Assembly: GCA_948467545.1 (NCBI GenBank)
Contig: CAOKER010000002.1
Coordinates: forward strand, 186,001-250,000
Direction of reading: 5' to 3'
DNA: 64,000 nucleotides
DNA from: an uncultured Eubacteriales bacterium
GTDB lineage: Bacteria; Bacillota; Clostridia; Oscillospirales; CAG-272
Numbering within the stretch: position 1 is the stretch's first letter; the number at the start of each line of letters is the position of its first letter. Position numbers and translations under genes: made by a program. Under the pieces are notes generated by a model. The model worked only from the letters and a program-made list of their open reading frames with translations, was not told the DNA's origin and searched no databases. Shown here in pieces: positions 3,511-39,068 of the stretch.

Positions 3511-5244
3511 ATGAAAGGAATGAATATAACTATTATAAAAATGTTGAAAAAGATTACGGCTCTGCTGGTAACAGCAGCTTTTATTTTGCTTATGATTCCG
3601 TCTTTACAGGTTACGTCGTTTGCCGTGCCCGATACTACATATACCGGAACTGAAAATGAGAAAACAGTATATAATTTCTTGATGAATGTTTTAAAGGTTA
3701 ATGATGCGGCGGCTGCGGGAATACTTGCAAACTTATATTCTGAATCAGCCTATAATCCTAAAGCAGAGCATATAGAAGCGGACGGTTCGCTCAGTTATGG
3801 ACTTTGCCAGTGGAATAAAACCCGTCTTACTGCGCTGAAGGATTTTTGTTCTGCAAATGGTTATGATTATACAACGCTGAACGGGCAGCTTTATTTTCTT
3901 AAGTATGAGCTTGAAGGCAGTGAAGCAAAAGCTTATGAAAAGGTGAAAAACGTAAGTAACACTGCCGACGGAGCGTATCTTGCAGGGTATAACTGGGCGG
4001 CGTATTTTGAACGGTGTGCAAGTATATATTATGAAAGCCGAGCTTGCCTTTCAAGAGATTCGTATTGGCCTATTTACGGAATCGCGCCTAAGGTTATGAC
4101 TGCGCGCGGAATAAATTATCCGATAACCCTTTCAGGCGGTTCCCACTATTCTCTTTACGGTTCGGTTGAATCGCCGAATGTATTGACAAAAGCGGAAGTC
4201 AGTATAAAGGACGCCTCGGGAAACGTCATGTTTAGCTATACTGCCTCCGGCAAGAAATACATTGATATAAATCAGAACGCGGACAGCAAAATGCTTTTTA
4301 ATAAGCTGACTGACGGTACATATTATTATTGCGTATATGCTGAGGACAGCTGTGGTTTTGTATTGGATTTTAACAGAGAATTTACCGTCGGATCGACCGA
4401 AACTCAGACACAAACCTTGTCATCTCAGGAAGCGGAACATAATCATAACAATTTACTTGGATACTCGTGGGATAAGGGCACGGTAATTATCGAGCCGACT
4501 GTAGAAGAAGACGGTTTGATGCTTTATACCTGCTACTGCGGCGTCAGCAGAACAGAGGCAATTCCCAAGCTTATTTCTTCTTTTACAGTAACATATGATG
4601 CAAACGGAGGAGCCGAAGCACCCGAAACGCAGGGAAAAGCAATAGATACGGATATTTTTCTGAGCAGTACGATTCCTTTGAGAGAAGGCTATGTTTTTCT
4701 TGGCTGGTCGGAGAACAAATCGGCGGAGGAAGCCGAATATCTGGCTGGAGATATATATTCCAAAAATGCCGATGCGGTTCTTTACGCAGTTTGGCGCGAG
4801 GAGGTTATTTCCGTGAAGGAAATAACATTGTCTGCTGTTAATATATCTCTCTTTGAGGGGGAAGCTGTAAAGCTTGAGGCAGAAGTTTTCCCTGATAATG
4901 CCGCGAATAAAAACGTAGTGTGGACAAGCTCAGATCCTGATATAGCCGCTGTTGATACGGAAGGCAATGTTACAGGCGTCAAGGCCGGAACCGCAGTTGT
5001 AACGGCGTCTGCTGAAGACGGAAAAGGAAGCTATGCATCCTGCTATATAAATGTTGCTGGATCAGATTGGGTTATTGGTGATTTAAACGGTGACGGTGAT
5101 GTAAACAGTAAGGATATGGTAAGAATGATGAAGTACCTGGCCGGAATAGATGTCAATATCTTTTTCCCGGATGTGAACGGGGACGGAAATGAGAACGTAA
5201 TAGATCTTTCCCGTCTTATGAAAATTATTGCCGGTGTTATTTGA
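3511..5244 (+). CDS. Secreted phage-tail-lysozyme-like protein with InlB repeat, Ig-like domain and dockerin
   Basis: 577 residues. An N-terminal signal peptide has a hydrophobic core at about 15-33 and a likely cut after TSFA. Residues about 45-190 resemble phage tail-tip lysozyme domains, with a catalytic-type Glu in the NLYSESAYNP region and YGLCQWN. A beta-rich part follows, then one Listeria-Bacteroides (InlB-type) repeat near 350-428, a BIG2-type Ig domain near 430-515, and a C-terminal type I dockerin from about 520. The dockerin shows two calcium loops, DLNGDGDVNSKD and DVNGDGNENVID. Dockerins bind cohesins, so the protein probably joins a cell-surface assembly. The start is uncertain: the ATG at 3541 would also give a good signal peptide, and no ideal ribosome binding site is seen for either. 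Confidence 0.88.
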   Translation: MKGMNITIIKMLKKITALLVTAAFILLMIPSLQVTSFAVPDTTYTGTENEKTVYNFLMNVLKVNDAAAAGILANLYSESAYNPKAEHIEADGSLSYGLCQWNKTRLTALKDFCSANGYDYTTLNGQLYFLKYELEGSEAKAYEKVKNVSNTADGAYLAGYNWAAYFERCASIYYESRACLSRDSYWPIYGIAPKVMTARGINYPITLSGGSHYSLYGSVESPNVLTKAEVSIKDASGNVMFSYTASGKKYIDINQNADSKMLFNKLTDGTYYYCVYAEDSCGFVLDFNREFTVGSTETQTQTLSSQEAEHNHNNLLGYSWDKGTVIIEPTVEEDGLMLYTCYCGVSRTEAIPKLISSFTVTYDANGGAEAPETQGKAIDTDIFLSSTIPLREGYVFLGWSENKSAEEAEYLAGDIYSKNADAVLYAVWREEVISVKEITLSAVNISLFEGEAVKLEAEVFPDNAANKNVVWTSSDPDIAAVDTEGNVTGVKAGTAVVTASAEDGKGSYASCYINVAGSDWVIGDLNGDGDVNSKDMVRMMKYLAGIDVNIFFPDVNGDGNENVIDLSRLMKIIAGVI

Positions 5245-7475: not shown

Positions 7476-8231
7476 TTAAATTTGAATCGCCGCAATCATT
7501 GTACCGTTCAGCACCTTTTCTTTTCTGAAAGAATAAAAGTTTTTAGTATCGCAGGAAGTGCAAAAGGGAGCAATATTTATATTATTAGGATTTATTCCTG
7601 CCTCGGTTAACAGCCATGCATTTAACGAAGGTAAGTCATAAAAGAATGAAGAGTCTGTACTTTGTGAAATTATAAAGTCATCCGTATGATTGCCAACGCT
7701 GGCTCTGACGGCAGTTAAAAAATCATCTTTAACCTCAAAGCAGCATGAATGTATTGCGGCGCCGATAGCGACTTGTATTTTGTCTTTGTCGGCTCCGTAA
7801 TTTGTCATTATTCGTACCGCATTTGCTGCAATTCCCGGTACGCTGTTTTTAGGAAAATTATTCTGTTTTGCAATTGTACCGCGCCATCCGGCATGTACGG
7901 CGGCCGCAATTTTGTTGTGAGAATCGCAGAGAATGATCGGAACGCAATCGGCTGTACGTATTGCAATGCCATATTTTATATCGGTCTTTAAAAAAGAATT
8001 TTCTGAAATTACAAAGCCGTCGCAATAGTGAGGTGTATTTATATTATTATCATTTATATATACAATGTCGGGTGAGTGAATTTGTTTTTCTGCCTGAATT
8101 ATTTGAAACGGGAGTGCGTCGGCGTCAGACTTTCTGGTTGTAAAAAAGTGGTTTGCTTTTATATTATCTGCCGTATATAAAGCATTTTGCGGCAGAAAGG
8201 TAAAATTACTGTTATACTCGTTTATTTTCAT
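7476..8231 (-). CDS. pgeF: Peptidoglycan editing factor / multicopper oxidase-like purine nucleoside phosphorylase (YfiH/YlmD)
   Basis: 251 residues. The family signature is clear: TADCVPIILCD, AAAVHAGWRGT, and GAAIHSCCFEV near the C-terminal third, with the His and Cys residues that bind metal in DUF152 (Cu-oxidase_4) proteins. Members act on adenosine and other purine nucleosides, and in E. coli the protein removes wrongly built muropeptides. GGAG precedes the ATG. The roughly 130-base leader contains four degenerate copies of CTTATGGA, the last being part of the ribosome binding site. Confidence 0.93.
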   Translation of the reverse strand: MKINEYNSNFTFLPQNALYTADNIKANHFFTTRKSDADALPFQIIQAEKQIHSPDIVYINDNNINTPHYCDGFVISENSFLKTDIKYGIAIRTADCVPIILCDSHNKIAAAVHAGWRGTIAKQNNFPKNSVPGIAANAVRIMTNYGADKDKIQVAIGAAIHSCCFEVKDDFLTAVRASVGNHTDDFIISQSTDSSFFYDLPSLNAWLLTEAGINPNNINIAPFCTSCDTKNFYSFRKEKVLNGTMIAAIQI

Positions 8232-8367
8232 ATTTAATCTCCATAAGTAATTATTATTCCGCGGTATGTTTTAATTGCTCATAAGGCGGTCCATAAGGAA
8301 CCCGTAAAGTTCCGAAAGTCGTCCATAAGCTGTCTATACGGAGCGTCTTGCTTTCGGCTATGATTGA

Positions 8368-8396
8368 ATTTTAACATAATTATGCATAGCTGTCAA
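8368..8396 (-). promoter_or_regulatory. pgeF promoter (sigma-A)
   Basis: On the minus strand TTGACA, exactly 17 bp, TAAAAT. It is divergent from the ABC transporter promoter 40 bp away. Confidence 0.8.
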
Positions 8397-8435
8397 TTAA
8401 AAGCAAATATTTTAGCTTTTTAACACGATAAAGCG

Positions 8436-8464
8436 TTGACAAACTGTTCCGAATGAGTTATAAT
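8436..8464 (+). promoter_or_regulatory. Amino-acid ABC transporter promoter (sigma-A)
   Basis: TTGACA, 17 bp, TATAAT: a full consensus match. It also shows that translation cannot start at the upstream in-frame codon at 8453, which lies inside the promoter. Confidence 0.93.
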
Positions 8465-8515
8465 ATATTTACTATTTTTATAATAAGTTTATACTATGCT
8501 AAAGGAGTATTTACA

Positions 8516-9367
8516 ATGAAGTTTACCTTCAAACGTGTATGTTCATTTATTATGGCGGCCGCACTTTTAATTTGCGGCATATCATTAATTTCATGCGGCA
8601 AAAAAGGAGCGGGTTACATAGTTCTTGATGAAAATTTCGGCGCGGAAAATTATGCGGTAGGGTTTCGCCGAGATGACAACGCTCTGACTCTTAAGATTCA
8701 GGAAATTCTTGACGCCATGATTTCGGACGGCGCAGCCGGCGAAATAGCGGTAAAATGGTTCGGTTCCGACGTAATGCTGCGCGATGTCGATTTTCCGCGC
8801 GAGATTAAAGAAACCGAAGGAGATACGTCACTTCAGTATGTTCTCGACAAGGGAGAGCTGATTCTCGGTCTTGACGAAACATTTCCGCCGATGGGCTTCC
8901 GTGATGAAAACGGGGAAATCGTAGGATTTGATATCGATCTTGCCAAAGAGGTATGCAAGCGTCTCGGTGTTGAGCTTAAGCTTCAGCCTATTTCGTGGAA
9001 AGCAAAAGAAATGGAGCTGTCAACAAAAAAGATAGATTGTATCTGGAACGGCATGTCGGTGGATGACGACAGAATCGAGGGCTTTAATCTTTCCAAGCCC
9101 TATATTGCAAATAAACAGATTATAATAACATCTGAAGGTTCGGGCATCAAAACCAAGGCAGACCTTGCGGGCAAAAATGTGGGCGCGCAGGAAGGTTCGT
9201 CTGCTCTCGGAGCAATTAAGGCAGATGCGGAAACATTTAATTCTTTTGAAAAGCTTTCAGAATATGAAAGCAACGACGAAGCTTATCTCGATTTAAAAGC
9301 AGGCAGAATAGACGCGCTTGTGGTTGATGAGGTATACGGCCGCTACATGCTTGAACAGGATAATTAA
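8516..9367 (+). CDS. Amino-acid ABC transporter substrate-binding lipoprotein, circularly permuted
   Basis: 283 residues from the ATG preceded by AAAGGAG. The lipoprotein signal peptide ends in LISC (Cys about residue 27). In the usual SBP_bac_3 order a protein runs from a LGLDETFPPMGF-like strand to VVDEV.GRYML, then VLDE.FG..YAVGFR, and ends in KWFGSD. Here the VLDENFG-to-KWFGSDVM segment stands first (about 35-85). The protein then starts again at LDKGELILGLDETFPPMGF and stops just after VVDEVYGRYMLEQDN. Every module is present once, so this looks like a true permutation, not a truncation. It sits in front of its permease and ATPase genes. The probable substrate is a polar amino acid; which one cannot be told. 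Confidence 0.88.
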   Translation: MKFTFKRVCSFIMAAALLICGISLISCGKKGAGYIVLDENFGAENYAVGFRRDDNALTLKIQEILDAMISDGAAGEIAVKWFGSDVMLRDVDFPREIKETEGDTSLQYVLDKGELILGLDETFPPMGFRDENGEIVGFDIDLAKEVCKRLGVELKLQPISWKAKEMELSTKKIDCIWNGMSVDDDRIEGFNLSKPYIANKQIIITSEGSGIKTKADLAGKNVGAQEGSSALGAIKADAETFNSFEKLSEYESNDEAYLDLKAGRIDALVVDEVYGRYMLEQDN

Positions 9368-9378
9368 TAAATATAAAA

Positions 9379-9410
9379 AACCGGCATTTGGATTTTTCAG
9401 ATGCCGGTTT
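9379..9410. terminator. Hairpin between binding-protein and permease genes
   Basis: The stem AACCGGCATTTG / AGATGCCGGTTT has only TTT on its plus-strand side, so it is probably a partial terminator or mRNA-stabilising hairpin that lowers permease expression. The better T run is on the minus-strand side. Confidence 0.55.
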
Positions 9411-9558
9411 AGTGGGCATTGAAAAGTGCGCATGGTAATATTGCGGAAGTATAATAGCATAAATTAATAAATTTTCACAAGCTGATTTTATTTTTGCTGT
9501 ATGTAATTGAACATGAAAATCAATTTGCTTTGAGCCGTGAACGGTATGGGGTATTTTT

Positions 9559-10209
9559 ATGGAGTTTGTTCTGTCTGTTACAAAGGTATTGTGCAAGGGA
9601 CTGGGGTGTACGGTATCTCTGTTTTTTATTACAATAATAGCGGCTGTACCGCTGGGGCTTATTATAAGTTTTATAATAACCGGAAAGAATCGCGTTATGC
9701 GCGCCGTTATGCGCGGATTTGTATTTGTTATGAGAGGTACTCCGCTGATGCTTCAGCTGTTCTTCTTTTATTACGGGCTTCCTTCAATCCCCGCAGTCGG
9801 TAAATATCTTGTTCTCGGAAGATTCAGCGCCGCGGTGCTGACCTTTATTCTCAATTATTCGGCATATCTTGCGGAAATATTCCGCGGCGGCTTGCTTTCA
9901 ATTGACGCGGGACAGTACGAGGCCGCGTCAGTTTTAGGCTTTTCAAAGCTTCAAACGCGTATTCACGTTGTGATGCCTCAAATGTTTAAGGTTGTGCTTC
10001 CGTCGGTCAGCAATGAGGCGATTACGCTTATAAAAGATACGGCGCTTGTCACATCAATCGGCATAGCGGATTTGCTTCACTATACTAAGTCTATGGTAAA
10101 TCATTACGTTGATGTAACTCCATACATAATTGCAGCGATTATATATCTTTTGATGACATACGGCCTTACTAAATTTTTTGCATATCTTGAACGGCGTTTT
10201 ATGTTTTAA
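9559..10209 (+). CDS. Amino-acid ABC transporter permease
   Basis: 216 residues with about five membrane segments, typical of the HisM/GlnP family (214-230). Family marks are TPLMLQLFFFYYGLP, the SAYLAEIFRGGLLSI element, and the EAA loop EAASVLGFSKLQTRIHVVMPQ that docks on the ATPase, followed by NEAITLIKDTALVTSIG. The ATG at 9559 has a weak GG-rich binding site upstream. It works with the flanking genes as one importer. Confidence 0.94.
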   Translation: MEFVLSVTKVLCKGLGCTVSLFFITIIAAVPLGLIISFIITGKNRVMRAVMRGFVFVMRGTPLMLQLFFFYYGLPSIPAVGKYLVLGRFSAAVLTFILNYSAYLAEIFRGGLLSIDAGQYEAASVLGFSKLQTRIHVVMPQMFKVVLPSVSNEAITLIKDTALVTSIGIADLLHYTKSMVNHYVDVTPYIIAAIIYLLMTYGLTKFFAYLERRFMF

Positions 10210-10327: not shown

Positions 10328-11104
10328 ATGGGTGAAATAACGGAAAACATTTCTTCAGATAAAATTATGATTCATGCTGACGGAATTAAAAAAAGATTCG
10401 GCGACATTGAGGTATTGAAAGGGATTGACCTTGATGTTACTCCCGGAGAGGTTATCGCGGTTATAGGACCGTCGGGCTCCGGAAAAAGTACGATGCTGCG
10501 CTGTCTGATAGGTCTTGAAAAAATATCCGACGGCAGTATCTATATTGACGGCAGACCTTTTGTTAAAAACGGAATATATGTACGCGAAAAACAAGAAAAA
10601 GAAATATGCCGCAGGATGGGAATGGTTTTTCAGCAATTTAATCTTTTTTCGCATATGTCAGTTCGGAAAAATCTGATAATGCCTCCGGTTCTTGCAAAGC
10701 TGTGTACAAAAGATGAAGCGCTCGAAAAGGCAAAGCTCCTTCTTGACAGAGTGGGTTTATCAGATAAGCTTGACGCACTTCCGATGTCACTTTCGGGCGG
10801 ACAGAAACAAAGGGTTGCCATTGCAAGAGCTATGATGATGAATCCGGAAATAATTCTCTTTGACGAGCCGACGTCCGCTCTTGATCCTGAGCTTACAGGC
10901 GAGGTCCTGTCGGTCATGAGAGCGCTTGCGGAAGATAATATGACTATGATTATCGTGACGCATGAAATGGCTTTTGCGCGTGAAATCGCGAGCCGAGTTT
11001 TGTTTATGGATGGAGGGGTTATCTCTGAGTCGGGAACGCCTGAAGAAGTTTTTGGTAATTCGAGTGCCCGCTTGAAAACTTTTTTACGCGGATTTTCGGT
11101 TTGA
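10328..11104 (+). CDS. Amino-acid ABC transporter ATP-binding protein
   Basis: 258 residues with all nucleotide-binding motifs: Walker [10 protein letters not shown] (about 47-55), Q-loop in VFQQFNLF, signature LSGGQKQR (about 156), Walker [15 protein letters not shown], and the H-loop in IVTHEM. The order and the [11 protein letters not shown] motif are those of GlnQ/HisP-type importers. Last gene of the transporter unit, closed by a terminator. Confidence 0.95.
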
Positions 11105-11303: not shown

Positions 11304-12536
11304 ATGGATAACAACAGTGTTGAAAATCAGACGAATGAGAACAAATCTAAGAACAACCGCAGAATTGCTGTATGCTGCTGTATTGTCGCGGCAATATGTA
11401 TCGTAGCGGCGACAGTGTTGGTAATGCATTTTCGGAATTCCGACGAAACTGCTGTTGTAGACACCGGTGAAACAGAGGAGAAAAACGATTCTGGCCGGCA
11501 GGATAATGAGACGACCGCGGAAACCGAGATATCAAAACCGGAATTTGAAATATCAGATGACGGGGTTTTGACAGCGTACAACGGAGAAGCGGAGACGGTG
11601 GTAATTCCCGACAATGTAATTTCGATCGGAGCTGACGCATTCGGAACAAGTCCTTACGCGGAGGACATCAAAACTGTAAAGCTCGGTAAATCGGTCGAGG
11701 ATATTGATGTGCGGGCTTTTGTTAGTTTAAAATCGTTGGAGGATATAGAAGTAGTCGAAGATAATAATAATTATAATAAAATATCAGATGGTATTCTTTT
11801 AAGCAAGGATGGAACTATATTTTTAGGGGTAAAGAGCAGAAGTGAGAATGAAGCAATTACTGCTTTTATTGATAAAGTTTATAAGGGAGAAGTTAAGTCA
11901 GATAGTTTTAATCGGTTTATTATTGGACCTGCAGTTATCGAAATAGAATTTAAAGAGGCGAATTATAATATAAGTGAAGTATATCCTGAAAATGAGGAAA
12001 ATAAGATAATGTATTTTACCTCAGTAAGTGCTTATGGACAAAAAACAACTTTTGATGAATCACTAGCGTCTTACGGAAATGTATCATATCGTGCATTTGA
12101 TACGGATGAAGGATATGTTTTTTCAAAAACTTATTATGTTTTTGGAAGCACATGGATACTTACAAAAAATGGTGTTTTAGAATATAGTGTATTACCATCA
12201 TGGGAATATAACAGTTCAAATAATGATTCTGTTATATTTTTTAGTGAGGGAGAAAATGGTGAATTAATATATTCTCGTAGACCTCGTAAGTTTTGTTTTG
12301 TCGGAGGATGTTGGGATTATATTTATAGTTGTACTGGGTTAGATGAATTTGCTAGAGAAGAAGGTATTGCCAAAGTTGAAAATGGAGATATAGTGTATTA
12401 TCCTGAGAAAACGTATACGGCAAGGGAAATAGGTCTTAATGAAGACTTTTTTAAAAGAGAATTTAATTTGAATTCGGATGAGGAATTACAAAACTGGTTT
12501 GAACTCAACGAAAAAAATTTTGGTTCAGCAAAATAA
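11304..12536 (+). CDS. Membrane-anchored LRR_5 (BspA-like) protein, paralogue 1
   Basis: 410 residues. A short basic cytoplasmic tail leads to one membrane helix (about 22-42) and an acidic Thr/Glu-rich linker. Then comes a BspA-like leucine-rich-repeat module with VVIPDNVISIGADAFG and IKTVKLGKSVEDIDVRAF (about 85-145). The remaining 260 residues match no family I recognise. The DNA of the LRR module is moderately GC-rich and nearly identical to the next gene, while the C-terminal part turns sharply AT-rich after about 11760. This suggests a mosaic or differently evolving module. All three paralogues end in SAK. AAAGGA precedes the ATG. Role unknown; such proteins often mediate adhesion. Confidence 0.8.
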   Translation: MDNNSVENQTNENKSKNNRRIAVCCCIVAAICIVAATVLVMHFRNSDETAVVDTGETEEKNDSGRQDNETTAETEISKPEFEISDDGVLTAYNGEAETVVIPDNVISIGADAFGTSPYAEDIKTVKLGKSVEDIDVRAFVSLKSLEDIEVVEDNNNYNKISDGILLSKDGTIFLGVKSRSENEAITAFIDKVYKGEVKSDSFNRFIIGPAVIEIEFKEANYNISEVYPENEENKIMYFTSVSAYGQKTTFDESLASYGNVSYRAFDTDEGYVFSKTYYVFGSTWILTKNGVLEYSVLPSWEYNSSNNDSVIFFSEGENGELIYSRRPRKFCFVGGCWDYIYSCTGLDEFAREEGIAKVENGDIVYYPEKTYTAREIGLNEDFFKREFNLNSDEELQNWFELNEKNFGSAK

Positions 12537-12591
12537 ATTATAACATTAAGCGATATGAGTAAATAAAATGCAAATGAGAAAGGAAAAAATA

Positions 12592-13803
12592 ATGAAAAAT
12601 AAAAAAAGTGGTCAATCTAATAAAACACTTATAGTTATATTATCTATAGTAGTTGTATTATGTGTAGTGGGTGCTGCTTTACTTGTGTTACATATTCGTA
12701 ATACTGAAGAAAAGCCCATTGATGGAGTAGATACTACAGAAACTGATAATACAGACACAGAAACAGAAATCGAAAATTCAAAACCGGAATTTGAAATATC
12801 GGAAGACGGGGTTTTGACAGCGTACAACGGAGAAGCTGAGACAGTGGTAATTCCCGACAACATAATTTCGATCGAAGCCGACGCATTCGGAACAAGTTCG
12901 TACGCGGAAGAAATCAAAACTGTAAAGCTTGGTAAATCGGTCGAAGATATTGATGTTCGGGCGTTTGTTAGTCTGACAAAGCTCGAAAATGTGGAGGTAC
13001 CGGAAGAAAACAGCAATTTTATATCAGGTGACGGCGTACTGATTAAAACAGATAACTCAGTGTTTTTCTGCATGCCGAGTATCATTAAAGATAATTACGA
13101 CATGTTTGATGTCTTTTTTGATGTAATCTCGTATAAAATAGATGGAACTGGAGAATCAAAACTTGTGTCCGGAGGTATGGTAGCAGAAATAGAAAGAGAA
13201 TATGCTGAGCCGGATAATCCAGTAAACAGAAAATATTATATTTCTTGTAATTCTTTTTCTGCTAAGGGGCAGACTATGATAGTAGATAAATCAATAATTC
13301 GTGAATACAAAGGCCTTAATTATATCAAGCCCTTTTATGCTTATGTAACTAATGAATGTGTAGTTTATTCTAACATAAGTAATGATGGATTTGGGAATAC
13401 ATGGTTATTTACTGATAATGAAATTATAAGAGTAGAGGTAATAGATTCGGCGGAAACTAAAGAAAAAATTAATGGAGAAGAATGGTATAATAACTCTGTT
13501 ATAACTTTCATGAAAGGAGAAGATGGTTCTTTAAATTATATAAGGAGGCCTCGAAAATATGTTGGAGTAGGAGGAACATACGATTGTGCTGTTTTTTGGA
13601 CTGGGCTTGATGAGTTTGCATACGAGGAAGGTTATGTTAAAATAGAGAATGGGAAACTTATATATAAGCTTGAAAAGTCATTAACTGCGAAAGAATATGG
13701 ATTAGATGAAACTTATATTACTTCTTTATTTAATTTAAAATCTGAAGAAGAACTTAATGAATATTTTTCGGGGCAAGCTCAAAAATACGAATCCGCAAAA
13801 TAA
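12592..13803 (+). CDS. Membrane-anchored LRR_5 (BspA-like) protein, paralogue 2
   Basis: 403 residues from the ATG that follows GAGAAAGG; an ATG 24 bases further up has no binding site. The domain plan is as in paralogue 1: lysine-rich start, one membrane helix (about 12-34), Thr/Asp/Glu linker, then the LRR module (about 65-140), which is almost the same at DNA level. A diverged tail contains MPSIIKDNYDMFDVFFDVIS, shared closely with paralogue 3. No terminator separates it from paralogue 1 (55-bp gap), so both are probably on one transcript. Function not recognised beyond the LRR module. Confidence 0.8.
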   Translation: MKNKKSGQSNKTLIVILSIVVVLCVVGAALLVLHIRNTEEKPIDGVDTTETDNTDTETEIENSKPEFEISEDGVLTAYNGEAETVVIPDNIISIEADAFGTSSYAEEIKTVKLGKSVEDIDVRAFVSLTKLENVEVPEENSNFISGDGVLIKTDNSVFFCMPSIIKDNYDMFDVFFDVISYKIDGTGESKLVSGGMVAEIEREYAEPDNPVNRKYYISCNSFSAKGQTMIVDKSIIREYKGLNYIKPFYAYVTNECVVYSNISNDGFGNTWLFTDNEIIRVEVIDSAETKEKINGEEWYNNSVITFMKGEDGSLNYIRRPRKYVGVGGTYDCAVFWTGLDEFAYEEGYVKIENGKLIYKLEKSLTAKEYGLDETYITSLFNLKSEEELNEYFSGQAQKYESAK

Positions 13804-25260: not shown

Positions 25261-28200
25261 TTATCTGAAATAACGTACCGCTGCTTCAAACATTCGGATA
25301 TTGTAATTTCCCGGTACGTTTTTATATAAACCGTCGCCGATTCTTTCGCTGTGTCCCATCTTTCCGAAAACTCTTCCGTCAGGAGATGTAATTCCTTCAA
25401 TCGCGTACATCGAACCGTTGGGATTAAAGTGAATATCAGATGTAGCATTATTGTCAAAATCCACATACTGCGTTGCTATCTGACCGTTTTCCGCGAGCTT
25501 TGCAATCAGTTCCTCGCTTGCGATAAAGCGTCCTTCGCCGTGTGAAATCGGAACGCTGTATACCTCTCCCACTTCCGTCATTGACAGCCACGGAGATTTA
25601 TTGGACGCAATTCTTGTGCGGACAATCCGAGACTGATGTCTTGCAATAGTATTGTACGTGAGCGTCGGGCAATTCTCGTCTGTGTCAATAATTTTGCCGT
25701 AAGGAACAAGGCCCAGCTTAATAAGCGCCTGAAAGCCGTTGCAGATACCGCAGATCAAACCGTCGCGGTTTTCCAGCAGGTCGGTAACGCCTTCCTTTAT
25801 TTCGGCATTACGGAAGAAAGCGGTAATAAATTTCCCGCTGCCGTCGGGTTCGTCTCCTCCGGAAAATCCGCCCGGAATAAAAATCATCTGTGCTGTTTTA
25901 ATTTTATCGGCAAATTTTTCGACGCTTGCGGAGATTCCGTCCGCACTGAGGTTATTAATTACTGCAATTTCCGGATCTGCTCCGGCGTCCGAGACTGCTT
26001 TTGCACTGTCATATTCACAGTTTGTTCCCGGAAACGCGGGAATCAAGATTTTCGGTTTTACCGATTTAACCGCGGGAGCGTATCTTTTTTCGGCCTTGTA
26101 GGAGAAGTTTTTCATTTCTTCTTTTTTATTTTCTATATTGCAGCTGAATACTTCCTCAAGCTTATTTTCATAATCCGAAAGGAGCTCGGAAAGCGGTATT
26201 GTTTCGGTGCCTAAGCCGATTTGACCGTCGTCCGTAATAAAGCCGAGAGTTTTTTCTTCACAGCCGTCTTTTAGCTCAAGGATGAACGAAGCATATCTGT
26301 ACCCGAAGATGTCCCGAACCGAAATGCCGTCCGAAAAATGAAATCCCAATCCGTTTCCGAACGCCATTTTCATTACCGCTTCTCCTATTCCTCCCATTCC
26401 GGGCGTATAGCATGAGACAGCCTTGCCTGAGCGGATAAGGGCGGTTACCTTTTCAAAAACGCCGAGAAGCGATTCGGTTTTCGGAAGATTGTTTTCATCA
26501 AATTCGGGTTCTATAATGACGACGCGGTTTCCTGCTTTTTTAAACTCAGGCGAAATAATATTATGTACTTTTTCTGTCGTCACCGCAAATGATACAAGAG
26601 TGGGAGGCACGTCAAGCGATTCAAAGGAACCGCTCATTGAATCCTTTCCTCCTACAGAGCCTATTCCAAGCTCCATTTGCGCCCGAAAAGCGCCGAGAAG
26701 AGCCGAAAACGGTTTTCCCCATCTTGTGCGGTCTCTTCCGGGGCGTTCGAAATACTCCTGAAAAGTAAGATATACATCTTTGAATGACGCTCCTGAGGCG
26801 ATCAGCTTGCACACAGACTCTACAACCGCAAGATATGCGCCGTGATACGGACTTTGTTCTGTTATAAAGGGATTATATCCGAATGACATTAACGAACAGT
26901 CGTCGGTGTGTTTCTTTTCGGAGGAGATTTTCTGAACCATTGCCTGTATCGGAGTAAGCTGATTTTTTCCTCCGAAAGGCATCAGAACCGTCCCTGCCCC
27001 GATTGTGGAATCAAATCGTTCGGAAAGGCCTCTCTTGGAGCAGATGTTAAGATCTGCCGCAAGCTTTTTATAATTATCATAAAATCCGCCGCAGATTTTC
27101 TTTTCTGTAAGCGCAGGCGCGGCTGCGGTGATGTCGATATGTTTTTCCGCACCGTTTGAATTTAGAAATTCGCGGCTTACATCGACGATTTTTCTGCCGT
27201 TCCAAGTCATGATGAGCCGCGCTTCGGCTTTAACCCTTGCTACCGGACAAGCCTGCAGATTTTCGGTTTCCGCCAGCTTCAGAAAAGCGTTTACATTATG
27301 AGGCTCTATAACTACGGCCATCCGTTCCTGAGATTCGCTGATTGCAAGCTCGGTGCCGTCGAGACCGTCGTATTTCCTGGGTACGGCGTTAAGATCGATT
27401 TCAAGGCCGTCCGCAAGCTCTCCTATAGCGACCGACACTCCGCCCGCACCGAAGTCATTGCAGCGTTTTATCATTCTGCAGACATCGCGGTTTCTGAAAA
27501 ATCTTTGAAGCTTTCTCTCTTCCGGTGCGTTGCCCTTCTGCACCTCCGCGCCGCAGGTTTCAAGCGACTGAACATTGTGCGATTTTGATGAGCCTGTCGC
27601 TCCGCCGCACCCGTCGCGGCCGGTACTTCCGCCGAGAAGAATTACAACATCTCCGGGAACCGGGCGTTCGCGGCGTACGTTTTCAGCCGGAGCCGCGGCG
27701 ATAACGGCACCGATCTCCATTCTTTTCGCCGCGTATCCTGGATGATAAATCTCGTCTACAATGCCTGTGGCGAGGCCGATCTGATTTCCGTATGACGAAT
27801 ATCCCGCCGCGGCGGTAGTTACGATTTTACGCTGCGGAAGTTTTCCCTTCATAGTTTCAGAGACGGGCTTTAAGGGATCTGCCGCGCCGGTTACGCGCAT
27901 CGCTCCGTAAACATATGCTCTGCCGGAGAGGGGATCGCGGATCGCGCCCCCGATACATGTCGCCGCGCCTCCGAAGGGTTCGATTTCTGTCGGGTGATTA
28001 TGCGTTTCGTTTTTAAAGAGAAGCAGCCACGGCTCTGTCTTTCCGTCCAGCTGAATATCAACCTTAACGGTGCACGCGTTAATTTCTTCCGATTCATCCA
28101 ATTTGTCGAGCCTGCCGTGAGCCTTAAGGTATTTGACTGCTATAGTAGCTATATCCATAAGGCAGATCGGTTTTGTTCTTCCGAGCTTCCGACGGACGGA

Positions 28201-28947
28201 TAAATATTCATCGTATGCGCTTTGAAGCAGCTCGTCCTCAAATTTAACGCTGTCTATTATCGTTAAAAATGTGGTATGACGGCAATGATCCGACCAGTAT
28301 GTGTCTATCATTCTGATTTCTGTTACGGTAGGATCGCGGCGTTCGGATTTAAAATAATCCTGACAAAAGGCGATGTCGTCGGTATCCATTGCAAGACCGT
28401 ATTCGCTGACGAACGATTCGAGCCCGCTTCTGTCAAGCGAAATAAAACCGTCGAGTGTTTTAACTTCCGTGGGAATATCGTATTTTACGTGAAGCGTCTC
28501 CGGCTTCTCGAAGGCGGCTTCTCTCGACTCAACCGGGTTGATTACATATTTTTTTATATCAGAAAGCTGTTTTTTCGATATATTTCCGTAAAGAACGTAA
28601 ACCTTAGCGGTACGTATAAGCGGCCGGTCTCCCTTGGAAATAATTTGAATACACTGCGCCGCCGAATCAGCTCGCTGATCGAATTGTCCCGGCAGATATT
28701 CCACCGCAAACGAAGCGGCGCCGTCCGTATCAAGTTTCTCGGATACTATGTCAAGCTGCGGCTCTGAAAAAACCGTCTTTTTTGCATAATTAAAGAGTTC
28801 CTCTGAGATATTTTCGGCGTCATAGCGGTTGATAACCCGGACATCGGTTAAGGCTTCTATACCGAGTAAATTGCGAATATCTGAGCATAGAGCCGACGCT
28901 TCATATGCAAGTTCTTTTTTCTTTTCTACAAATACTCTGTAAACCAT
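25261..28947 (-). CDS. purL: Phosphoribosylformylglycinamidine synthase, single-chain (PurL with glutaminase domain)
   Basis: 1228 residues. It converts FGAR, glutamine and ATP to FGAM. The synthase part runs to about 950, with STGRDGCGGATGSS, the NDFGAGGVSVAIGELADG motif and GGKDSMSGSF. From about 980 a class I glutamine amidotransferase domain follows: PAFPGTNCEYD, FIPGGFSGGDEP and the nucleophile elbow GICNGFQ with Cys present. Fusing the synthase and PurQ domains in one chain is a known variant in Clostridia. The stop-start junction with purD overlaps by one base. Confidence 0.97.
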   Translation of the reverse strand: MVYRVFVEKKKELAYEASALCSDIRNLLGIEALTDVRVINRYDAENISEELFNYAKKTVFSEPQLDIVSEKLDTDGAASFAVEYLPGQFDQRADSAAQCIQIISKGDRPLIRTAKVYVLYGNISKKQLSDIKKYVINPVESREAAFEKPETLHVKYDIPTEVKTLDGFISLDRSGLESFVSEYGLAMDTDDIAFCQDYFKSERRDPTVTEIRMIDTYWSDHCRHTTFLTIIDSVKFEDELLQSAYDEYLSVRRKLGRTKPICLMDIATIAVKYLKAHGRLDKLDESEEINACTVKVDIQLDGKTEPWLLLFKNETHNHPTEIEPFGGAATCIGGAIRDPLSGRAYVYGAMRVTGAADPLKPVSETMKGKLPQRKIVTTAAAGYSSYGNQIGLATGIVDEIYHPGYAAKRMEIGAVIAAAPAENVRRERPVPGDVVILLGGSTGRDGCGGATGSSKSHNVQSLETCGAEVQKGNAPEERKLQRFFRNRDVCRMIKRCNDFGAGGVSVAIGELADGLEIDLNAVPRKYDGLDGTELAISESQERMAVVIEPHNVNAFLKLAETENLQACPVARVKAEARLIMTWNGRKIVDVSREFLNSNGAEKHIDITAAAPALTEKKICGGFYDNYKKLAADLNICSKRGLSERFDSTIGAGTVLMPFGGKNQLTPIQAMVQKISSEKKHTDDCSLMSFGYNPFITEQSPYHGAYLAVVESVCKLIASGASFKDVYLTFQEYFERPGRDRTRWGKPFSALLGAFRAQMELGIGSVGGKDSMSGSFESLDVPPTLVSFAVTTEKVHNIISPEFKKAGNRVVIIEPEFDENNLPKTESLLGVFEKVTALIRSGKAVSCYTPGMGGIGEAVMKMAFGNGLGFHFSDGISVRDIFGYRYASFILELKDGCEEKTLGFITDDGQIGLGTETIPLSELLSDYENKLEEVFSCNIENKKEEMKNFSYKAEKRYAPAVKSVKPKILIPAFPGTNCEYDSAKAVSDAGADPEIAVINNLSADGISASVEKFADKIKTAQMIFIPGGFSGGDEPDGSGKFITAFFRNAEIKEGVTDLLENRDGLICGICNGFQALIKLGLVPYGKIIDTDENCPTLTYNTIARHQSRIVRTRIASNKSPWLSMTEVGEVYSVPISHGEGRFIASEELIAKLAENGQIATQYVDFDNNATSDIHFNPNGSMYAIEGITSPDGRVFGKMGHSERIGDGLYKNVPGNYNIRMFEAAVRYFR

Positions 28948-38934: not shown

Positions 38935-38968
38935 GGGCACACCTAACCTCAAAGAGTTAAGTGTGCCC
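38935..38968 (-). terminator. Terminator of the ZTP riboswitch
   Basis: GGGCACAC / GTGTGCCC with an extended inner stem, then TTTTCTGTTTTT on the minus strand. Its 5' strand includes the GGGC of the aptamer, so aptamer and terminator exclude each other. Confidence 0.9.
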
Positions 38969-39052
38969 AGACGGTCGGCTTAATACAGAAAAATTCTGCA
39001 GTATTCTCTGCTCCCCTGCGGTTTTCCGCATTATCCGTCAGTTGCAGAGAAC
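38960..39052 (-). ncRNA. ZTP riboswitch (pfl RNA) controlling purE operon
   Basis: Read on the minus strand. A P1 stem (TCTGC / GCAGA) encloses CTGACGGATAA, a TGCGG-AAAA-CCGCA hairpin and the conserved GGGGAGC. After a variable linker comes AAGCCGACCGTCTGGGCA, matching the CCGCCTGGGC signature of ZTP riboswitches. The GGGC is also the 5' strand of a terminator. Known biology: ZTP and AICAR ribotide (ZMP) accumulate when 10-formyl-THF is short, bind this RNA, and switch on folate and purine genes. Ligand binding should prevent termination here. It fits the operon, which contains glyA, fhs and both formyltransferases. Confidence 0.9.
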
Positions 39053-39068
39053 AAAATATTACAAAATC

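Follow-up and report, generated by a model that had tools for sequence, protein, structure and literature searches.

Gene organization at the permuted locus

The DNA analysed is a 64-kb stretch of a gut-type Clostridia genome, denominated here the window. An ORF on its plus strand (8516-9367) encodes a protein of 283 aa, which profile and phmmer matches and an AlphaFold model mark as a circularly permuted SBP_bac_3 lipoprotein. The longest mechanical ORF begins at 8453; ATG 8516 is favoured as start because a ribosome-binding site (AAAGGAG, 8501-8507) is located 8 bases upstream. A sigma-A-like promoter (TTGACA-17-TATAAT, 8436-8464, plus strand) matches the consensus at 12/12 positions. The segment 8516-8596 encodes a lipoprotein signal peptide with the lipobox ISC, and the protein is presumably lipidated at Cys27, the predicted residue 1.

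The gene heads an intact operon, in which binding protein, permease and ATPase follow each other on the same strand. The permease (BPD_transp_1, 9559-10209) was identified by domain match, and its nearest relatives adjoin other permuted substrate-binding proteins (SBPs) of the same clade. The ATPase (ABC_tran, 10328-11104) was identified by domain match and by comparison of permuted loci. A previous sequence-only reading had described promoter, ribosome-binding site, permease and ATPase as intact, and both transport genes are indeed complete. Homologues of the permease and/or the ATPase are present in 79/87 permuted loci, and a recognisable lipobox in 83/87. Family match, pocket residues (see below) and operon organization make it most likely that the protein serves as the binding protein of a polar amino-acid ABC importer, amino acids being the putative ligand class.

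Other elements were observed elsewhere in the window. The ORF at 3511-5244 encodes a 577-aa protein with phage-tail-lysozyme-like, Listeria-Bacteroides repeat, Big_2 and type I dockerin domains. Two adjacent paralogues of 410 and 411 aa (11304-12536 and 12568-13803) are hydrophobic over an N-terminal stretch and contain a short region resembling BspA-type LRR_5, which scores just under the Pfam cutoff; the pair looks like a tandem duplication. A ZMP/ZTP riboswitch (38958-39055, minus strand) is located upstream of minus-strand genes, including one for a 1228-aa FGAR amidotransferase (25261-28947).

Order of the sequence blocks

In the permuted protein the lipobox cysteine is directly followed by the ~55 residues that normally form the C-terminus, and these precede the ~185 of the normal N-terminal part. 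The translation reads M1-C27, YIVLDENFGAENYAVGFRR...KWFGSDVM (residues 34-88), a short linker, and TEGDTSLQYVLDKGELILGLDETFPPMGF... to GRYMLEQDN-stop (residues 100-283). The moved block (8615-8776), defined by phmmer, profile and model, corresponds to the canonical C-terminal part (profile h213-268), and in the model comprises the lobe-2 edge strand, the second hinge crossing and the terminal helices of lobe 1. The gap separating the two profile matches corresponds to a new linker of about 12 residues (8777-8812), which bridges the former C- and N-termini. The canonical N-terminal part follows (8813-9364; h32-211 by phmmer and profile), and ends after the last lobe-2 helix. All these segments are on the plus strand.

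When PDB sequences were searched with phmmer, residues 98-282 matched 4ohn 4-190 (i-E 5e-42) and residues 38-91 matched 4ohn 200-253 (i-E 6e-6). Two significant stretches in swapped order were similarly obtained with 3hv1. A profile built from 44 canonical relatives places h208-268 before h32-211 in a single frame. Both types of search confirm what had been read from the sequence, namely that the C-terminal block stands immediately after the lipoprotein cysteine and is followed by the N-terminal start, and that each module is present once. The SBP_bac_3 model PF00497 matches residues 115-217 with 117 bits (cutoff 26.4), and no NCBIfam model reaches its cutoff for the protein; curated models match permuted proteins only partly because of their block order. 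The canonical N-to-C order of the SBP_bac_3 family is not respected, the blocks being swapped, and by sequence comparison the protein is a permuted variant, homologous to the family and a non-standard member of it.

Predicted structure and binding site

A model obtained from the single sequence (pLDDT 33) was useless, and was replaced by one based on a 66-row alignment, made up of six permuted relatives together with canonical N-blocks and C-blocks. AlphaFold then returned one closed, confident structure (pLDDT 95, pTM 0.89). Structure prediction had been suggested as a check of the permutation, and the two-lobe fold closes with high confidence. The moved block (mature residues 8-56) is modelled as a strand (8-24) and two helices (29-45 and 47-56), with block-mean pLDDT of 95-98. 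Structural aligners that depend on chain order superpose only residues 75-257 of the model on 4ohn (Z 17.9, 183 aligned residues, rmsd 2.2), which is what would be seen if the remaining block had its place at the opposite canonical chain end. On the basis of the model and of this match, the predicted structure is a two-lobe type II fold. The last lobe-2 helix (246-256) and the edge strand running out of lobe 2 across the hinge flank the new chain ends, both of which are on lobe 2, where the sequence-only reading had put them.

As modelled, the chain would begin in lobe 2 and cross the hinge into lobe 1; the new linker joining the old ends would complete lobe 1, and the chain would then recross the hinge to end in lobe 2. 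Fold and pocket would be those of an ordinary protein, with the anchored N-terminus ~8 residues away from the lobe-2 edge strand, where the canonical counterpart would have a longer tether departing from lobe 1. The first block of one chain might instead complete the lobe of a neighbour, in a segment-swapped dimer or oligomer. Swapped elements have been stated for circularly permuted ribose-binding protein constructs (PMC10601554), but the prediction, which concerns a monomer model only, is confident throughout and the linker counts ~12 residues, and swapping is regarded as quite improbable.

Two pocket residues are conserved in canonical and permuted proteins. Arg186 (mature R160, 9071-9073, plus strand; column h117), the arginine that binds the ligand carboxylate in family 3, is R in 83/86 permuted and 74/91 canonical proteins. 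Asp271 (mature D245, 9326-9328, plus strand; column h200), the aspartate that binds the ligand amino group in family 3, is D in 84/86 and 90/91, respectively. The PDB was searched both by sequence profile and by fold, and among the matches listed no chain matched the permuted protein full length; the sole spanning sequence match among those listed was the tandem protein 6h30. Sequence and model together indicate that the gene product is very probably functional, a circularly permuted family-3 lipoprotein that binds substrate for a polar amino-acid ABC importer.

Conservation of the permuted order

A search of the family yielded matches in 15 other genomes at E up to 1e-70, 14 of which extend over the whole permuted profile; G1039 (197-aa frame) matches over the N-block only. 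Same-order orthologues occur in some 15 other genomes of the family, which cover at least 7 more genera, the nearest orthologues being 60-64% identical to the window protein. The named assemblies from which L033, L034 and L035 come also carry this order. L033 and G1126 of the family search have identical comparison values, and are one genome. In other families of the class, the single-contig genomes G393, G419 and G524 carry the same order. Values of dN/dS between genomes of genus g17 range from 0.035 to 0.12. Orthologues and dN/dS values rule out that the gene is a pseudogene or a one-off oddity.

The window derives from a 30-contig assembly, and it could be argued that a tandem pair of ordinary SBP genes had collapsed during assembly or sequencing. 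The genome has only one copy of the permuted gene, purifying selection is evident from the dN/dS values, and a search of other Clostridia, as had been recommended, found the same order in many independent assemblies, single-contig ones included, so that there is no misassembled tandem pair at this site. The chances of an artefact are practically nil.

Frequency and alternative cut points

A profile called A1 was built from 20 permuted proteins, and its match range separates the topologies. Single matches over the whole A1 profile were found in at least ~25/197 genomes of the order and at least ~46/392 genomes of the class, that is, in at least ~12% of the sampled Clostridia, closed genomes included. 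Among 398 genomes drawn from the phylum, those of other classes gave no permuted match with E up to 1e-66. An apparent permuted form outside the class, G930, proved to be a canonical tandem (L175). No clear permuted match was found in the rows examined from a plasmid collection, widest-coverage rows excepted.

Four cut points have been identified in total among related bacteria, that of the window (type 1) and three others. The type 1 cut (h206-213) is found in 76 of the 86 permuted proteins, in a sampling biased towards this type. Type 2 proteins (L049, L106, L180-L184) are cut where lobe 2 starts, near h136-151. The cut is near h170, inside lobe 2, in type 3 (L012, L017), and near h61, after the first strand, in type 4 (L030). 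Some of the proteins of types 2 to 4 have close canonical relatives.

Permuted domains may also be fused to a permease domain. Single ones are found in L184 and L101. L107 (617-4288, 1224 aa) and L108 (2058-4301) are SBP arrays that begin and stop mid-domain, at about h138 and h136, respectively. The L107 array is made up of h138-264, three h41-266 units and h42-136; that of L108 is a shorter version. The two may be read as four and two type 2 permuted domains in succession; alternatively, the two end halves would close the array into a ring.

Repeated origin of the permutation

For tree building, each protein was first rotated to canonical order by profile columns. Parsimony counts, in which gain and reversal are indistinguishable, gave 14 switches between canonical and permuted order on a 177-row tree. 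A careful 78-row tree gave 12 order changes, or 16 with all topologies kept apart. About 7 of the at least 12 changes are well supported. L005 pairs with the canonical L138 (support 100/99), L049 with the canonical L041 (100/97), and L141 and L193 with canonical rows (100/97); L071, L073 and L195 group together at 99/86, L181 and L182 at 99/93. Constraining all type 1 rows into one clade was rejected (p-AU 2.9e-38). A clade of L005 and the window group was also rejected (p 0.008), but the group was named after seeing the tree, and this p value flatters the conclusion. On these sequence trees the hypothesis that the window's cut arose only once is strongly rejected. The canonical L085 (5602-6513) and L091 (5585-6493) are nested among permuted proteins (96/82 with L187/L191), and possibly reverted to canonical order.

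Route to the permuted gene

Permutation by duplication is a described route (PMC3320104), fitted by L175 and by the permuted arrays. L175 (1318-2901, minus strand) is an in-frame tandem duplicate adjoining a permease, in which two canonical domains, 80% identical, make up 528 aa with one lipoprotein signal. The window protein gives one end-to-end match (48%) across the domain junction of L175, and the domain pair joins the window's clade with moderate support (87/84). Trimmed at both ends, L175 would give the permuted form, which suggests permutation by duplication. Since its domains are recent paralogues, L175 shows what the intermediate may have looked like and is not itself ancestral. In-frame tandem duplicates among the relatives also include L140, besides the permuted arrays of L107 and L108. 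Nothing beyond the gene's own start was found when remnants of a lost duplicate were searched for at 8000-8520 and 9365-9560.

The two blocks might alternatively derive from different binding-protein genes, joined in reverse order by fission and fusion. This may apply to the window protein because its blocks have different nearest canonical relatives, L036-L038 for the N-block and L176-L179 for the C-block. The C-block is only ~55 residues long, however, and its nearest neighbour is weakly determined. In the clear recent cases both blocks are closest to one canonical relative, L138 for L005 (63% and 64%) and L085/L091 for L190 and L191, and tandem and permuted-array forms occur among the relatives. 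Fusion is considered unlikely, and the window gene probably arose via duplication. After an in-frame tandem duplication of an SBP gene, copy 1 would have lost its beginning and copy 2 its end; the same process would have recurred on many occasions in Clostridia, at different cut points.

Anchoring of the permuted proteins

The tether from the cysteine to the first strand has a median length of 8 residues (interquartile 8-9) in type 1 proteins and 17 (13-28) in canonical ones, positions being approximate and kinship being ignored. Types 1 to 3 all have the anchor on lobe 2. The sequence-only reading had suggested possible effects of the permutation on docking or hinge closure. Anchoring on lobe 2 might confer an advantage, though this is somewhat doubtful. 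It is proposed only tentatively, and may well be wrong, that permutation in clostridial family-3 lipoproteins is recurrent and convergent, with a preferred cut by which a short tether anchors lobe 2, and adaptive, either because the trap is reoriented to the permease or because opening and closing of the tethered protein are altered.

There is about an even chance that permutation is selectively neutral, its recurrence reflecting only that SBP genes are often duplicated in tandem and that the fold is tolerant. Neutrality contests the anchoring idea only. It agrees with the tolerance of four different cut points and with the presence of tandem SBP fusions in the same lineages. It fits less well with the dominance of the h206-213 cut, seen in a sampling biased towards it, and with the uniformly short tether, which hints at a preferred geometry.

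Relation to known systems

Circular permutations that arise in nature are usually regarded as rare. Engineered circular permutants and biosensors based on periplasmic binding proteins show that the fold tolerates new chain ends; these are man-made, whereas the window protein is natural, conserved and part of an operon. The PF00497 proteins 4ohn, 3hv1, LAO and GlnBP share with it fold, Arg and Asp residues, and a permease/ATPase operon, but differ in block order and have the lipid anchor on lobe 1 instead of lobe 2. In GlnPQ-type tandem domains (6h30) and fused SBP-SBP proteins, the C-block of the first domain is connected to the N-block of the second as in the permuted protein; unlike the latter, these proteins have two complete, unpermuted domains. 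One very well studied fold is found in canonical and permuted forms among close relatives, with four cut points, tandem duplicates and intact operons, which makes route and consequences of permutation directly testable. A concrete question is also raised, namely which of the two lobes is turned towards the membrane when a binding protein is lipid-tethered.

TpMglB-2 (Tp0684) of Treponema pallidum is a natural circular permutation for which the denomination 'Type Ic / Cluster Bc' ligand-binding proteins has been proposed (PMC4990184, PDB 5JX2). It still binds ligand and changes conformation, has relatives in treponemes and Gram-positive bacteria, and its authors suggested that permutation might serve tethering to the membrane (PMC4990184). 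The tether and lobe-2 anchor pattern described here fits this suggestion, without proving it. TpMglB-2 and the window protein are both naturally permuted, lipid-tethered binding proteins of ABC importers. The fold of TpMglB-2, however, is that of type I sugar-binding proteins; its permutation lies in the N lobe, the hinge is crossed a fourth time, and a single topology has been described. The window protein belongs by sequence and fold to the type II amino-acid family 3, and falls outside Type Ic, which is defined by a type I sugar-binding fold with a permuted N lobe; it is cut in lobe 2, and its relatives feature several cut points and repeated origins. A literature search of incomplete coverage, which retrieved TpMglB-2, found no report of natural permutation in family 3. 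Permuted binding lipoproteins are known from TpMglB-2; permutation in family 3 is apparently new, and its recurrence is the surprising part.
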